Of a DNA stretch of 17,677 nucleotides, positions 319 to 17,676 are shown piece by piece. The number at the start of each line of letters is the position of its first letter. The first letter of the stretch is position 1. The DNA comes from Deltaproteobacteria bacterium RIFOXYA12_FULL_61_11 (lineage in GTDB: Bacteria > Bdellovibrionota_F > JAHFAK01 > YA12-FULL-61-11). The notes beneath the pieces are model-generated. The model ran no database searches, was not told the DNA's origin, and saw only the letters and a program-made list of their open reading frames with translations. A program made the position numbers and the translations under genes. The stretch covers positions 6,220-23,896 of the forward strand of contig MGSU01000342.1 in assembly GCA_001799195.1 (NCBI GenBank). The letters run 5' to 3'.

Positions 319-1809
319 TTGAAACAAGGGCAGGAAAGGATCCTCTTCGGTAAGGAAAAAGAAAAAGCCGGCCAGCTTGGACTACGAGTTCGCTGGTATC
401 AGCGTAAGTTGTTGGCATACTGTGGTGTTGCAACGATAATCACGAGTATTATCAGTATACTTCTGGTCGGAAATGCGTCGCGACAAGCCTGGTTCAGGAA
501 TCTTCTTCTTGAACGAATTGGGACAGGTGATGTCTTCGAGTTGCGACCAAAGAACATTCACAATGATGGAGCCATGGAGAACGAGGCTGTCGATATTCTA
601 TATGAACTTGAAAATTATTGGAAATTCGAACAACGCCGATGTGATGAAATCACCGATCCGATGTATCAGCTCATTTGCTATCGATTAATCCTCCGCCCCC
701 ATATGCTCGCTTTTATTTCGAAAAGCTCAGAAGCTCCGTTATTCAGTGAGGATGATCATGCAGATAAAACAGGAGCGCTGGGAAAAAAATTAATCATCTT
801 TCGAAAGGCAATGCGAATACCGGAGCCAATACCAAGTATGAAAAGATGCAATCAATTGAACCTGATAAACGATATCGGCGAGTGCATTTTCTATGCAACC
901 TATCGTACCATAGTCAATCTCCAGAGCGATCCACGAAGGAAAATTCACAGCATGCGTCTTATATGCGATGAGATAGAAGATCTCAATTGGAAGTCAGAAT
1001 GCTATTTTCATCTTGCAGATGAAATTGTTTTACAGGGACTTTTTGAGCAGTATTCAGAGGCAGTAGTTGAATCATGTATACAATCGATTCAATTCAAAGA
1101 TTTTGGTTGTTTCAGTCACACCATCATCAATGTATCCCTTGGGCAAGCTCTTGTTCTATGTAATACCATGTTGCACAATGATACCCAAGTCTTTAAGGAA
1201 TGTATGATTGAACAGTGCTATTCCGGCTATGGCCGCATGCTTTCAACAACGCATGTGTTTGAAGATACACAAAGTCAGGCTGACCAAATGAAGGGGCTCT
1301 TGCAGGTAGTACGTTATTGTAAGCAATTGAACCATGAAACCGCAGTTCGAGCTTGTATTCAAGGTTGTTTTTGGCGTCTGAACGAATTCGAGAATCAAGG
1401 AAAGCGTAGAAGGCTGTTTCATCAGGCATGCAATACTATGAACGGTAATAAAAAAGATACTTGTATATCCATGTTTGGTCTTATCGAAGGTCAAGCAAAC
1501 CGGGAACTCTCACTGAAGCTCCAACCTCTGCCACGATCATGGCAACCAACGTTCTGTTACCAATTTGGAATCGGCTTGTTACTGTCATCAAAATTCAAGC
1601 TAATGGATGCAATAACTACATGTTCCCATGCTGGCATTTGCGAGTTCGAATGCTATTATGGGTTGATCAATCAACTTGATATGTTCAAAACTGTCAAACA
1701 CACGGATACTCTTGGTATGTGCGATTTTTTTCCGGGGGAATATCAGCAAAAATGCTATGCTTCTGTAGCTCTTTCTGAGTACCAGCATGCCGGATCAAAA
1801 AAACGGTAA
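319..1809 (+). CDS. Membrane-anchored protein with paired-cysteine helical repeats, unknown function
   Basis: This 496-residue protein is not one I recognise. The start is TTG at 319, chosen because GGAAG (306-310) sits 8 bases upstream and because this start keeps a basic N-terminus followed by one membrane segment (about residues 31-50). By the positive-inside rule the remaining roughly 445 residues would be extracytoplasmic. That part holds 22 cysteines, many in C-x(10-11)-C pairs: 108/120, 177/189, 216/228, 253/264, 334/346, 371/382 and 468/479. Cysteines at 216, 253, 295, 334, 371 and 413 recur every 37-42 residues, the size of a helical-hairpin (TPR- or Sel1-like) repeat. The typical unit reads C-x(11)-C-aromatic-x-x-A. 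Disulfide-stabilised solenoid is my inference. The gene is far more AT-rich than every neighbour, suggesting recent acquisition. It is convergent with the glycan operon. Confidence 0.85.
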   Translation: MKQGQERILFGKEKEKAGQLGLRVRWYQRKLLAYCGVATIITSIISILLVGNASRQAWFRNLLLERIGTGDVFELRPKNIHNDGAMENEAVDILYELENYWKFEQRRCDEITDPMYQLICYRLILRPHMLAFISKSSEAPLFSEDDHADKTGALGKKLIIFRKAMRIPEPIPSMKRCNQLNLINDIGECIFYATYRTIVNLQSDPRRKIHSMRLICDEIEDLNWKSECYFHLADEIVLQGLFEQYSEAVVESCIQSIQFKDFGCFSHTIINVSLGQALVLCNTMLHNDTQVFKECMIEQCYSGYGRMLSTTHVFEDTQSQADQMKGLLQVVRYCKQLNHETAVRACIQGCFWRLNEFENQGKRRRLFHQACNTMNGNKKDTCISMFGLIEGQANRELSLKLQPLPRSWQPTFCYQFGIGLLLSSKFKLMDAITTCSHAGICEFECYYGLINQLDMFKTVKHTDTLGMCDFFPGEYQQKCYASVALSEYQHAGSKKR

Positions 1810-12085: not shown

Positions 12086-13588
12086 CTACAACTCCCCCTC
12101 ATCCTCGCTGGCATCTTCGGGTACGGAGCTATCGGCGCTGGCCGTATTCTCGGGCACGGAGAGATCGGGAGTTGCCTCGGCCGCGAGCAGGGCCGCGTCG
12201 AGGTGGCCGGAGAGGGCTTCGAGTCTCGTCAGGAAGGGGCCGGCGTACTTTGTTTTCGCTGCGGCGAGCGATTTCTCGAAAGCCTGCAGGTGTTCTCTGG
12301 CCTTGGTGAGGTCCGACCGGTCGTAGGCTTCGGCCAGAGCGCGCAGGGAGCGCCCCAGTTGATCGGCGAGGCGCACGGTCTTGAAGGTCGTACTGCCTTG
12401 GGCCGGGACCAGGGCAGGACCATCGTAGGATCGATCCGAGGAGCTGTCCTCCCAGCCTTCGAAGCTGGTGTGCAGACTCAAACTCCCCAGTTCGGCCTGG
12501 CGGAACTCTTGGCACACGGTCACCGAGGAACCGCTCGGGAGAGGTCGTCCGGCGAGCAGGGTCGAACTGGGTTGATAGGTGCGGCCCGGGGTGAATTCGG
12601 GCCGGTCGAGGGAAACCCCGGCCGGGTAGTGCACGGTTAAGCCAACCCTCTGACCGGGTGCGGAGAGGAGGTGATGGAGGTGTTCGAAGTCCCCGGTCGA
12701 GGGGAGTGCCGGGAAGGGGTAGACCAAGGCGTCGGAACCGCGGGCCAGCGTGGCAAGAGCAGCGCTCGAACCGTCATCGCCGAGGTCGATTACCAGCAGG
12801 TACAGTCCCTTGGCCGTGGTGATGTCGAGCAGCCGTTGCAGCCTGGCCGCTTCGGTGGACGGCAGGGAGAAGCCGCCGTCGGTGAGCAGGAGGATCCGGG
12901 AGGTAGCGAACTCCTGGGTCGCCGTCGCTCGGGGCTCGAGGACCTCGTCGATGAGGGCGTCGGGAGAGAAGCGAGCATCGGAGGAAGCATCGGTCAACCT
13001 CGCGGCCAGTTCGGTGAGCGCCGCGTCGTCGCTGGCTTCTGCCGCCACCGGGACGAGCGCGGTATCGAGGGTGGCGAAGGTGAGGGTTTCCCCCTCCGTG
13101 AGCTGAGCGCGAAAGCCGGTCAGGAAGGCGGTGACCCTGGAGGGGAGGTCGTTCGAGGCCATCGAGGGCGAGCTGTCGACAATGGCTTGGAAATGCAGGG
13201 CCTTTTGAGGTGTCACCGAGGGGGGGAGCGCAAGGCGGGCCACCAGGAGATGCAGGCCGTTGCCGCTCTCGAGGGGGACGATGGAGAGATCGAGGGAGGG
13301 GTCGGGGTTGGAGGCGGTGAAGGCGGGGAGCAGACCCTCCAGGAAAGACCTGGTGGCGAAGGTCTCAGGGGGGGGAATGACCGCGCGGCGGGTGAGTAGC
13401 ACCTCGGCATGGCGCAGTCCCGGAACGCCCCAGGCGTTGAGTTCGGCCCCGAGCTCGAGCGGCAAGGGGCGACGTTCGTCATCGGTGGTCCAGGTCGGAT
13501 CGTCGGGGGTCTCTTGGGAAGAATCTTCCCCGACCGGAGTGACGCAACTGACGAGCCAGGAGAGGAGGAGGACCGAGAGGGTTTTCAC
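12086..13588 (-). CDS. vWA-domain lipoprotein
   Basis: The protein has 500 residues from GTG at 13588, which overlaps the upstream stop as GTGA and begins a clean lipoprotein signal (VKTLSVLLLSWLVSC, C15). The frame running back to 13882 is a shadow of the neighbour. Position +2 is Val, so outer-membrane sorting is expected if the Lol rule applies. The vWA domain spans about 130-310. Its metal-ion (MIDAS) motif D138-x-S-x-S is in VDSSPSM, with a second acidic site in LLTDGG (D237). These imply divalent-metal-dependent protein binding. A C-terminal region (about 425-475) is helical with coiled-coil character, and the tail is acidic and low-complexity. It resembles YfbK-like vWA proteins. It is the last gene of the four-gene envelope operon. 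Confidence 0.85.
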   Translation of the reverse strand: MKTLSVLLLSWLVSCVTPVGEDSSQETPDDPTWTTDDERRPLPLELGAELNAWGVPGLRHAEVLLTRRAVIPPPETFATRSFLEGLLPAFTASNPDPSLDLSIVPLESGNGLHLLVARLALPPSVTPQKALHFQAIVDSSPSMASNDLPSRVTAFLTGFRAQLTEGETLTFATLDTALVPVAAEASDDAALTELAARLTDASSDARFSPDALIDEVLEPRATATQEFATSRILLLTDGGFSLPSTEAARLQRLLDITTAKGLYLLVIDLGDDGSSAALATLARGSDALVYPFPALPSTGDFEHLHHLLSAPGQRVGLTVHYPAGVSLDRPEFTPGRTYQPSSTLLAGRPLPSGSSVTVCQEFRQAELGSLSLHTSFEGWEDSSSDRSYDGPALVPAQGSTTFKTVRLADQLGRSLRALAEAYDRSDLTKAREHLQAFEKSLAAAKTKYAGPFLTRLEALSGHLDAALLAAEATPDLSVPENTASADSSVPEDASEDEGEL

Positions 13589-14841
13589 CGTGGCACCTGT
13601 CGGAGACTGGATTGTTGGACGATGCGGAAGCCCCCGCTCTGCAAGGTGTCGGAGAGCTCGCTCTGGCTGGTTCGCTCGAGGTGGTAGAACACGGCGCCCG
13701 CGGGCAGGGCGGAGAGGTCGAGTTCGGCCTTGCCCAGGTCTTCGACGGGCAGCCGTAGGATCGGGTCGACCTCCTCCTGGTTCGACCGGACGACCAGGGT
13801 CGTCCGGTATTCGGTGTCCCTGGGTAACCAGGAAACGGTCAAGAGGTTGCCTACGAGTTCGTGTTCTATGGAAGAGAAACACTCGGGGATGGTTTGGTGG
13901 TGAGCGAAGAGCCGCCGGTCGTCAGGGTCGAGCAGGTCCACGGAATAGCGGCGGCCCGGGGCGAGGACGTCGAAGTTCGTACGGTAGGTTCTGGCCTTGG
14001 GGTCTTCGAGGCGTTGACTGCCCATGAGTACGGTACCGTTGAGCGCGAGCTTGAAGATGGTGCCGTTCAGTCCGGACGTGAGGATCCCCTCGGCCAAACG
14101 GAAACTCACCTCGGCACTCGGCCGGGGGGTGGCATCGCAGTCGGGGAGCACGACCGAGAAATCGGCTTCGAGGTGTTCGACGATCAGGTCGTTGGTGAGG
14201 GTGAACTCGCGGGTACGGCTGCTGAGGGTGATCACCTCGAGTGCATGGGGCTCGAGTTCTCCCGAACGGGTGATGCGCTGTTTCTGCAGGTGCAGCAGGT
14301 GGCTGCCCGGTTCCGTCGGAGGGGTGGCGAGCTCGTACCGGCCCGTGTCCGGGAGGTTGAGCGCCAGGGCGCGATCGTCGATCCAGACGGTCACGGTATC
14401 GAGCGTTGCAAAGGGAGACCACTCGGGTGTGAGTTGGCCACCCAAGGGAAGACGTTTGAGTGATTGGGGGTAATCGATGGAGAAAGCAGCTGGGGGGTCG
14501 GCCTGCAGTGCAATGGTTTCACCGGTGGGTTGATAGAGGATCTGCACCTGGAAGGATTGCGCTTTGGGCAGAGGGCCGTCGGTCCGTTCGAGACGATAGC
14601 CGCGATGCTCGTCGAAGGGGATTGCTTCGCCGTTGACGGAGAGGGTGTAGTCGCTGCTGAAGTAATGACTGTGAACCTCGAGGGGCGGAGCCGAGATGAC
14701 GATGCGTTGGTCTTTCTCGAAGAGGTGGATGGTGATCTTGGCCTCGGCCTCGAAGAAGGGCTCGTCGTAGTCGATGGGCATACAGCTCCAAAGAAGGAGA
14801 GCCATGAGCACGACGCCGAGTTTAAAAAGCTTGGTCCGCAT
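13585..14841 (-). CDS. Beta-rich lipoprotein of unknown family
   Basis: The protein has 418 residues. It has a lipoprotein signal MRTKLFKLGVVLMALLLWSC with C20 (LWSC lipobox). The remainder is dominated by alternating hydrophobic/polar stretches and short loops, suggesting several beta-sandwich (Ig- or fibronectin-like) domains. Examples are KITIHLFEK and RIVISAPPLEV near the start and TVTVWIDDRALAL in the middle. Only two cysteines are seen in the mature part (in LPDCDAT and PECFSS), possibly one disulfide. I do not recognise the family and see no catalytic motif. The start ATG at 14841 has GAGGT about 4 bases upstream and lies 20 bases inside the upstream gene's 3' end. It is tightly coupled between a TSP3 lipoprotein and a vWA lipoprotein, so it is probably part of the same surface assembly. 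Confidence 0.8.
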   Translation of the reverse strand: MRTKLFKLGVVLMALLLWSCMPIDYDEPFFEAEAKITIHLFEKDQRIVISAPPLEVHSHYFSSDYTLSVNGEAIPFDEHRGYRLERTDGPLPKAQSFQVQILYQPTGETIALQADPPAAFSIDYPQSLKRLPLGGQLTPEWSPFATLDTVTVWIDDRALALNLPDTGRYELATPPTEPGSHLLHLQKQRITRSGELEPHALEVITLSSRTREFTLTNDLIVEHLEADFSVVLPDCDATPRPSAEVSFRLAEGILTSGLNGTIFKLALNGTVLMGSQRLEDPKARTYRTNFDVLAPGRRYSVDLLDPDDRRLFAHHQTIPECFSSIEHELVGNLLTVSWLPRDTEYRTTLVVRSNQEEVDPILRLPVEDLGKAELDLSALPAGAVFYHLERTSQSELSDTLQSGGFRIVQQSSLRQVPR

Positions 14842-16591
14842 GGTACCTCAAATACTTGCCGAAGAGGATGGACACCGAGCGGCTGCGATTGCTGAGAGTG
14901 AGAAAGTCCGGTTTCTGGTCGTCGTCGACGAAGCCCGTGCGCAGGAGTTCCGGACCATTGTTGACCCGCAGGAGCTCGCGATAGCGATCGGCTTCGACGG
15001 AGGAAAAATCCTCGGCGGCGAGGGGAGTATCGGTGGGCATTACGGTGAAGGCGAAGAGTTCCAAGGTACTCTCAGTGCCGGAGAGGACGGCGACCAGCCG
15101 ATGCTCCCCGTCGCGGAGGACCTCGAGAGCCGTGGGCCGAACGCTGCTGTGCACCTCGAGGAGCGCGGAGAACAAGCCGTGCTCGTGGCGAGAGATGGAA
15201 AAACCCCGCTCGTCGAGCAGGACGAGGTCCGGGAGACGGTCGGCATCCACGGTCGTCAGGCCGAAACCCAGGTAGGGTTTCTTCGCGAGGGCTTGCCCGG
15301 AGCCGCGGTAGGTTCCGTCTGCCTGGAGGTAGAAGATACTCAAGGAAGGGGTTTGTTCGTTGAGCACGAGCAGATCCCGGCGCGTGTCGAGATCGAGGTC
15401 GAGCCAGTGCAGACTTCGTCCCCCCTGCTCCAGCGGTAGGAGTTGCCGACCCAGTTCCTTCCCCTCGAGGTCGAACTCGAGTACGGTCAGGAGGGCTTCG
15501 GCTGCCGACGTAGCTGCAAGGGTAATGCGGCCGGATACCCCTGCGTTGAGCGCGACGTGGTCAGGTCGGATCGGTACGAAGGGGCGGGCGACAGCATCGA
15601 AACCCTCGCCCTCGTCCCTCAGTAGGACGGCTTGACCATCGGCTTCTCGCCAGGCGAGGACCACCGGTTTTCCCGCATTGTCGAGCGCGGTGGCCAGACC
15701 TGTTGCCTCGGGCAGAGCGAGGTCGAATTCCATGATTTTACTGAAATTCCCATCATCCTGCAAACTGAGCGCCTTGAACCAGCCCGTCTCGGCGGAGAGC
15801 AGCAACAGCTCGGCAGTGCCGTCGGTGTCGAGGTCGAGGAGTTCGAGGTCGGCCGTGGGGCTATCGAGCGCCACGGTGGCGATCAAATCCTGGACGTCGA
15901 TGATGCCATCGCCATCGGTGTCCTGCTTCGTCGGATCGGTCCCGGTAACCGTGGCTTCGAAATGATCGGGTAGCCCGTCCTTGTCGGTATCGGGGGTCAA
16001 GGGGTCGGTCCCTGCATCGTGCAGCCCGTTGTAGACGCCGGTGTTCCTCTCCTGGCCGTCGAGTAGGCCGTCGCCATCGCTGTCTTCCTTGAGAGGATCG
16101 GTGCCGAGATTGCTCTCCTCGAGGTTGATCGATCCGTCGGCGTCGTAGTCCAGACCATACGTATAGATGGCCGAGGAGGGGCGGGAGTGCTGGGCTCCGG
16201 AAACGACCTGGATCTGGACCAAGAAGGGGGGGCTGCGGCGGGTCATGCCGGGCAGGACGGCCGAGGTGCTATCGGCGCTGACCTCGAGTTCGATCAGGTC
16301 GTTGTCGTCCGGTCCGTACTGGAGGAGGTAGGCGTCGATGGCGGGATGGTCGAGGCGGTTCCATTGGACGGTGAGCTCGTCCTGGTCGTCGTAAGGGCCG
16401 AAGGCGGCGAAGCGGAGCTGGAAGGAGTCGGTGGTGCGCACGAGCGAGGAGCAGGCCGCGGGGTTGGCACAAGCCTCGGCCGGGGGAGGGACCTCGGCGT
16501 TCGGATTCCAGAAGTCGAGAGGATTGTCCCGGGTGTGTTCCTCGACCGACGTACAAGCGGTGAAAAGCAACAGCCAGGCGAGGAGGCGCAT
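14822..16591 (-). CDS. Lipoprotein with thrombospondin type 3 calcium repeats and FG-GAP/VCBS-like propeller
   Basis: The protein has 589 residues from ATG at 16591. A GTG one codon earlier (16594) overlaps the PEGA gene stop as GTGA. GGGAGG is 6 bases before the ATG but only 3 before the GTG, so ATG is preferred. The signal MRLLAWLLLFTAC ends in a lipobox (C13). Next is a fibronectin III-like stretch (about 50-145), then acidic calcium-binding TSP3 repeats (about 148-235) with cores DSDGDGLLD, DTDKDGLPD and DTDGDGIID and interspersed GTDP. The C-terminal half repeats 'hhhDhDxDxxxDLhhL' (LLDLDTDGTAELLLL, LDLDLDTRRDLLVL, TVDADRLPDLVLL, FVDDDQKPDFLTL), as in FG-GAP/VCBS beta-propellers. It is probably a calcium-stabilised cell-surface adhesin or scaffold. 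Confidence 0.88.
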   Translation of the reverse strand: MRLLAWLLLFTACTSVEEHTRDNPLDFWNPNAEVPPPAEACANPAACSSLVRTTDSFQLRFAAFGPYDDQDELTVQWNRLDHPAIDAYLLQYGPDDNDLIELEVSADSTSAVLPGMTRRSPPFLVQIQVVSGAQHSRPSSAIYTYGLDYDADGSINLEESNLGTDPLKEDSDGDGLLDGQERNTGVYNGLHDAGTDPLTPDTDKDGLPDHFEATVTGTDPTKQDTDGDGIIDVQDLIATVALDSPTADLELLDLDTDGTAELLLLSAETGWFKALSLQDDGNFSKIMEFDLALPEATGLATALDNAGKPVVLAWREADGQAVLLRDEGEGFDAVARPFVPIRPDHVALNAGVSGRITLAATSAAEALLTVLEFDLEGKELGRQLLPLEQGGRSLHWLDLDLDTRRDLLVLNEQTPSLSIFYLQADGTYRGSGQALAKKPYLGFGLTTVDADRLPDLVLLDERGFSISRHEHGLFSALLEVHSSVRPTALEVLRDGEHRLVAVLSGTESTLELFAFTVMPTDTPLAAEDFSSVEADRYRELLRVNNGPELLRTGFVDDDQKPDFLTLSNRSRSVSILFGKYLRYHADQAF

Positions 16592-17676
16592 CACCAGCCT
16601 CCCAGGGTGAAGGTCAGACCGGTGCTCCCCAGCTCGGCGCCGGTTCCGCCAGGGCCTTGCAGCAAGGTCCGGGTCTCTCGGACATCGAGATAGTAGTAAA
16701 AAGCCACCGAGCCGAGAATGGTCCCCGTGGTAGCGGCGATGATGGCCTGGAGGAGTTGGCGTTCTGCCGTGTGGCGGCGGTTGCGATAGGTTTCGAAGGC
16801 TTGGTCCATGTCTTGTTGGACCACCGCGAAGGAATAGTCGGTATAGGCTTCCCCGGCTTCTCCAGCAGCTTGATCCCGCCGATAGAGGGCAATGCCGGCG
16901 TAGGCGAGGACGGCGCCGCCGACGCTGCCGGCGAGTATTGCCATGGTCTTGCTGGTCTCGAGCCTGGAGCGAAGATGGCGACTATCGGGCAATAAACGCA
17001 AGTCAAGTCGACGCTCTTCGTTGGGAGCGAGGAGTACGGATTGGCGTAACTCTTCGAAGTTCTTGCGGTACACGGTGAGTTGGTGCCGCCCGGCAGGCAG
17101 GTTCGAGCGGGTCAGGGGGGTGGTACCCAGATAGGTACCGTCAAGACTCACCGAGGCTCTCGAGGGTGTGGAGGAGAGGTGCAGTATGGCCGGCAGGGGG
17201 ATCAGGGGATCGGTGATCACGAGGTGCTCGTCGGAACGAATCTCGATGGTACGCTTGAGCGGACGATAGTCCAGGTGTTGCACTAGGAGGAGGTGCTCGC
17301 CCTCGGCCAAGGTCAGATCCGCGCAGCGTTCGGTGGGCATACGCTCGCCGTCGATCCAGACTTCGCCCGGGGGTATGGTCGCCACGGTGATGGTTCCGGT
17401 GCGATGGGCGAGGGTGAGATCGAGGACCGCCTCTTTGTCCTCTTCGAGGGTCACGGTCCTCACGAGGTCGAAGCAACCGGTGCGGGCGAGCCGCAGTTCG
17501 TGAACGCCGGGTTCGAGCTGGAAGTTCTCCAGGGGGGTGGTGCCGAGCAAGCGTTCGCCGAGGTAGACCGAGGCCTGGGCTGGGGTGCTGCGCAGGGTCA
17601 GTCGTCCTGGGGTCCTAAACTCCAGTTCTACCCGGGCCAACTCGTCGCGACGGATGTCGAGGTCCCGCAGCAGTGG
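16591..17676 (-). CDS. PEGA-repeat membrane protein (N-terminus outside window)
   Basis: The frame is open to the window edge, giving 361 visible residues that read naturally from the edge (PLLRDLDIRRDELARVELEF). The true start is therefore upstream of 17677, and the TTG at 17640 is only an internal codon. Counted from that codon there are three PEGA-type beta repeats: about 10-80 (STPAQASVYLGERLLGTTP), 81-146 (IPPGEVWIDGERM) and 150-217 (STPSRASVSLDGTYLGTTP). Two membrane segments follow (about 232-253 and 297-318), separated by a charged helical stretch. PEGA repeats are surface or periplasmic modules thought to bind cell-wall polymers or other proteins. The C-terminus is short and ends LTFTLGGW. 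It is the first visible gene of the four-gene envelope unit. Confidence 0.85.
   Translation of the reverse strand, partial: PLLRDLDIRRDELARVELEFRTPGRLTLRSTPAQASVYLGERLLGTTPLENFQLEPGVHELRLARTGCFDLVRTVTLEEDKEAVLDLTLAHRTGTITVATIPPGEVWIDGERMPTERCADLTLAEGEHLLLVQHLDYRPLKRTIEIRSDEHLVITDPLIPLPAILHLSSTPSRASVSLDGTYLGTTPLTRSNLPAGRHQLTVYRKNFEELRQSVLLAPNEERRLDLRLLPDSRHLRSRLETSKTMAILAGSVGGAVLAYAGIALYRRDQAAGEAGEAYTDYSFAVVQQDMDQAFETYRNRRHTAERQLLQAIIAATTGTILGSVAFYYYLDVRETRTLLQGPGGTGAELGSTGLTFTLGGW

Follow-up and report, generated by a model that had tools for sequence, protein, structure and literature searches.

The window, by which we mean the whole 17,677-base stretch of DNA that was analysed, contains four long open reading frames (ORFs) that follow one another on the minus strand from position 17676 to position 12086, according to the ORF list of the window. 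They and their junctions are as follows, in the direction of transcription.

16591..17676, minus strand: gene for a PEGA-repeat membrane protein, 361 aa visible, 5' end missing (Pfam, hydropathy)
16589..16593, minus strand: one-base overlap of the PEGA stop and the TSP3 start, TGATG (sequence reading)
14822..16591, minus strand: gene for a TSP3/FG-GAP lipoprotein, 589 aa; start ATG at 16591, with GGGAGG 6 bases upstream
14822..14841, minus strand: 20-base overlap of the end of the TSP3 gene and the start of the orphan gene (ORFs and sequence)
13585..14841, minus strand: gene for an orphan exported protein, 418 aa, with signal peptide; start ATG at 14841; 'beta-rich' by inspection only
13585..13588, minus strand: four-base overlap of the orphan-gene stop and the vWA start, GTGA (sequence reading)
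12086..13588, minus strand: gene for a divergent vWA lipoprotein, 500 aa; start GTG at 13588 (profile, hhalign, Foldseek)

Gene junctions and proposed translational coupling

Read along the operon, the junction overlaps measure 1, 20 and 4 bases, in agreement with an earlier note on this DNA, which had reported overlaps of 1-4 bases at two junctions and 20 at one. The same note described a four-gene module. Four overlapping ORFs are indeed present, but the PEGA gene is cut by the end of the contig (G000:C342, 23,896 bases), which coincides with the end of the window, and its start is absent. Because the contig stops inside this gene, four genes is a minimum, and the operon may extend further upstream. 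We looked for an overlapping contig to extend it, and the last 200 bases matched no other contig convincingly. An RNase Z-like gene lies convergently downstream of the operon, with its stop adjoining that of the vWA gene, and promoter- or terminator-like sites in the operon stretch number no more than about chance level. From their order, strand and overlaps, the four genes are probably co-transcribed on a single transcript.

The overlaps had also been taken to mean equal, coupled production of the proteins, and this part of the earlier proposal is not borne out. A Shine-Dalgarno-like sequence (GGGAGG, GAGG or AGG) precedes every one of the visible starts, three in all, at a distance of 4-7 bases, and 4- or 1-base overlaps were seen in 8/26 same-strand neighbour pairs, seven of them outside this operon (about 7/24 of the other pairs), in a crude survey of ten stretches holding module paralogues, the window or rpoB, which is not a random sample. 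Since overlaps are common in the genome and the starts have Shine-Dalgarno-like sequences of their own, the overlaps here are not evidence of equal production. Among the sampled pairs is a row of ExbB/ExbD/TonB-like genes, a lipoprotein gene and a TonB-dependent receptor-like gene (L003:164-5799, plus strand; names by translation reading), with 4-base overlaps at several junctions.

The frequency of overlaps elsewhere favours an explanation in which the genes share a transcript by genome economy only, with the exported proteins being of unrelated function and having no common job. TSP3 and PEGA paralogues elsewhere in the genome, which stand without the other operon partners, speak for the same explanation. 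Set against this, the locus has three successive overlapping junctions and all of its visible products are of envelope type, which suggests common use; we consider genome economy a possible explanation of the whole arrangement, though a doubtful one.

At the other end of the window, positions 1-2000 are low in GC (0.46-0.50, vs 0.59-0.67 elsewhere) and contain a 496-residue Cys-rich ORF (319-1809, plus strand) with no convincing Pfam match. Since 15 consecutive N (L003:6205-6219) immediately precede the window, foreign DNA and a scaffolding error are both possible origins of this low-GC start.

Domain content of the four products

The PEGA gene product matches Pfam PEGA in three stretches (E 9.9e-36; 121.9 bits vs a cut-off of 20.8), and hydropathy indicates that the three repeats are followed by two transmembrane segments, at residues ~244-265 and 308-326. 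It resembles the LIC10124 family in its tandem PEGA repeats and matches the LIC10124 model with E 1.5e-14, but at 53.5 bits vs a cut-off of 650 it does not belong to that family. It further differs in its two C-terminal transmembrane segments, a comparison made with its N-terminus out of sight. The same genome encodes several PEGA paralogues, and in some of these what looks by eye like a TolB/CsgG-type domain precedes the repeats. By analogy, the missing N-terminal part of the window protein may be a region of this type. At another locus (L072:5333-9252, minus strand), two large PEGA-repeat proteins are encoded by genes that overlap by 4 bases, and each has a TolB/CsgG-like region, judged by eye, in front of its repeats.

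The second protein comprises a weakly Fn3-like N-terminal part (Tencon, E 0.07), a TSP3 repeat region (residues ~147-237) with four TSP3-type DxDxDG calcium motifs at residues 148-224, and an FG-GAP/propeller-like part (residues ~250-589). The matches to TSP3_bac (E 1.6e-4, 21.9 bits, cut-off 25) and FG-GAP_3 (E 4.7e-4, 21.1 bits, cut-off 26.9) both lie just under the respective Pfam cut-offs. TSP3 repeats were matched in 74/386 genomes across the domain, and in the 386 genomes the protein found matches only via the repeats or part of the propeller.

For the third protein, no relative was found in Pfam or NCBIfam and no significant one in the PDB, nor was a credible relative seen in the 386 genomes across the domain and 195 genomes of the G029 phylum, which is probably Myxococcota. 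A weak match in genome G375 (E 0.006) was rejected, as it falls in a frame with abundant Leu and Arg that appears to be non-coding. An AlphaFold model of the orphan protein reached a pLDDT of 32.5 and was discarded as worthless.

Lipoprotein signals had been reported for three of the products. Those of the TSP3 protein (LFTAC) and the vWA protein (WLVSC) meet the strict lipobox pattern, but the orphan protein has an imperfect lipobox (LLWSC), with Trp at -2, that is off consensus and fails the strict pattern. In all three exported proteins the residue that follows the Cys is something other than Asp, and the E. coli rule would therefore send them to the outer membrane.

Due to its divergence, the fourth protein gave no match to Pfam VWA at E<1. 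However, its matches in the 195 genomes of the G029 phylum have E values of 1e-6 to 1e-3, and a vWA profile made from matches finds the protein at 1.1e-12. Two of the matches taken for YfbK were Pfam-checked and have both YfbK domains. We distinguish a YfbK-like N-terminal segment (residues 61-127), the vWA domain (~128-290), a strand-rich part, and a three-helix C-terminal part (400-472). Comparison by hhalign with seven YfbK proteins gave a probability of 96.4% (E 1.3e-9) over residues 61-273, including the N-terminal PPPET..FL segment. Five other vWA proteins, two of them Pfam-checked and lacking both YfbK domains, scored equally (96.4%, E 1.4e-9, residues 98-330). As a control, the orphan protein was compared with the same profile and gave a probability of 1%. 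The AlphaFold model has a mean pLDDT of 51, with values of ~80 at best in the vWA core and C-terminal helices, and Foldseek matched it to vWA domains of the ArnAB/Sec23-24 type, of inter-alpha-inhibitor heavy chains and of integrins, with E down to 1e-12. A vWA Rossmann-like fold is thus supported by sequence profiles and by a predicted structure, the latter a fold match at low-to-moderate model confidence that supports the fold class only. The metal site had been described as an intact MIDAS. By alignment, the DxSxS motif (D138, S140, S142) and the loop-3 Asp (D237) are kept, but the column of the loop-2 Thr holds Phe207, with Ser208 next to it, so 'intact' was an overstatement.

YfbK proteins combine vWF_A (PF12450), VWA and YfbK_C (PF12034), and the vWA protein shares with this family its export, an N-terminal RR..PPPET..FL-like motif and DxSxS. 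As the hhalign match spans both the PPPET..FL segment typical of YfbK and the vWA domain, the protein could have arisen from YfbK by duplication and divergence, and the set could be an envelope or stress unit of the YfbK type. We consider this decidedly unlikely. The protein has a three-helix C-terminal part and no YfbK_C by Pfam, the match to YfbK stopping at residue 273; it lies below the PF12450 threshold, with no hit in the Pfam scan or in a genome search at E<=10, yet that same search finds two canonical YfbK genes elsewhere in the genome, both standing without these operon neighbours. It is also set apart from the family by its gene neighbours and by its metal site, which according to the alignment has no Thr, and other vWA proteins match it equally well. 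Proteins of the bacterial CaCC and inter-alpha-trypsin inhibitor heavy chain type have a similar layout, with vWA followed by strand-rich and helical parts, but identity is ~20% and the neighbours are again different. A further YfbK-like protein (L209:4027-5286, plus strand) resembles PF12450 in its N-terminal part, with a score of 16.8 bits that lies below the cut-off, and has an apparent YfbK_C-type end, apparently with no vWA domain between the two.

Gene order, lineage and named systems

The set of genomes analysed includes one other member of the class, the sole further representative of the phylum in that set, and a search of it found none of the four proteins (vWA, orphan, TSP3, PEGA). 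We then scanned 50 stretches besides the window for the three module types; each surrounds a match to TSP3, PEGA or vWA, or the spurious match to the orphan, and is at most 20 kb long (three are <5 kb, at contig ends). PEGA, TSP3 and vWA occur together in none of these, and TSP3 with either of the others in none, as judged by a simple TSP3 pattern that missed some stretches chosen for a TSP3 match. An insensitive scan of genome contigs for exact 8-residue matches to the four concatenated proteins, with repeats removed, found nothing. A vWA gene stands beside a PEGA gene in one stretch, in genome G397 (L181:7270-10757, plus strand), where the genes for a PEGA protein and then an alpha-2-macroglobulin-like protein come directly after one for a vWA lipoprotein. 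This was judged a coincidence because the PEGA protein is built differently and because of the nature of the next gene, as read from its translation.

The earlier note had named conserved gene order as a check on its proposal, and the outcome speaks against that proposal: no conserved order was found across the one class-mate genome, the 386 genomes and the 195 genomes. This does not amount to a clean refutation. The phylum is represented by two genomes in the set and close relatives are almost unsampled, so the absence is weak evidence, and the order may still be conserved among close relatives. A 285-residue stretch of RpoB shows ~49-56% identity to Myxococcota and further delta-type bacteria, which puts the lineage in their neighbourhood; the full protein is 65.5% identical to that of the class-mate.

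That position is one reason to consider a myxobacterial-type gliding and adhesion machine, with the vWA protein as CglB and the TSP3 protein as CglD. In the Glt gliding complex, CglB serves as a surface adhesin of vWA type (PMC13104615). The TSP3 protein matches the CglD model with E 5.9e-12 and the MtsD and MtsC models weakly. The gliding adhesins CglB and CglD and the cohesion proteins MtsC and MtsD resemble the window proteins in carrying vWA and TSP3 modules on surface-exposed proteins. However, the CglD match (NF033765) covers residues 148-259, that is, TSP3 repeats only, at 44.2 bits vs a cut-off of 400, and such repeats are widespread, as noted above. No Glt or Agl gene was noticed in the window or contig, and the vWA protein is closest to YfbK/CaCC-type proteins. 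A gliding role of this kind appears very improbable. Beyond the shared TSP3 repeats, the four proteins match no defence, secretion or motility family, an anti-phage library gave no match, and literature on PEGA+vWA or TSP3+vWA systems yielded nothing relevant. The earlier view that no named system has this composition therefore agrees with the lack of a family match to any named secretion or motility system.

A candidate set of binding-type envelope proteins

The sequence analysis supports a description of the set as an uncharacterised lipoprotein operon that encodes exported, mostly lipid-anchored proteins of binding-type modules. Our preferred reading, with a probability of about 0.5, is a lineage-specific operon of envelope-exposed binding-type proteins, perhaps forming one assembly. 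We counted in its favour the gene order and overlaps, the export signals, the domain content, the vWA relationship seen by profile, HMM and fold, the number of promoter- and terminator-like sites (about chance level at most), and the lack of a match to defence, secretion or motility families other than through TSP3 repeats; we counted against it that no relative has the same order, which leaves the grouping of the proteins without evolutionary support, and that the vWA metal site is without Thr.

In the preferred reading, all four products would be placed in the envelope: the membrane protein with PEGA repeats and the three that are exported, at least two of the latter having good lipoboxes. 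TSP3/propeller and vWA proteins belong to families in which bound Ca2+ or Mg2+ aids ligand binding. Judging by these domain types, the most likely job of the set would be binding, the target being a surface, a polymer or another envelope protein. The vWA protein would be the putative part that binds with metal assistance, and the TSP3/propeller protein would act as a spacer or partner stiffened by calcium. The earlier note had gone from binding modules to one surface complex. Exported binding-type modules are indeed present, but the step to a complex draws on overlap alone, and even within the preferred reading the odds that the four products form one complex are no better than even. Bolder still would be the idea that this little-sampled phylum has a new multiprotein machine of its own for envelope adhesion or anchoring. 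In it, the PEGA membrane protein would carry the metal-assisted vWA lipoprotein, the calcium-stiffened TSP3/propeller lipoprotein and the orphan lipoprotein; this we regard as unlikely.

As it stands, the locus is a caution that overlapping genes alone do not show a complex. Should the four products prove to act jointly, they would constitute a surface-binding machine from a phylum for which very few genomes exist, and this would give a first handle on the attachment of such cells.
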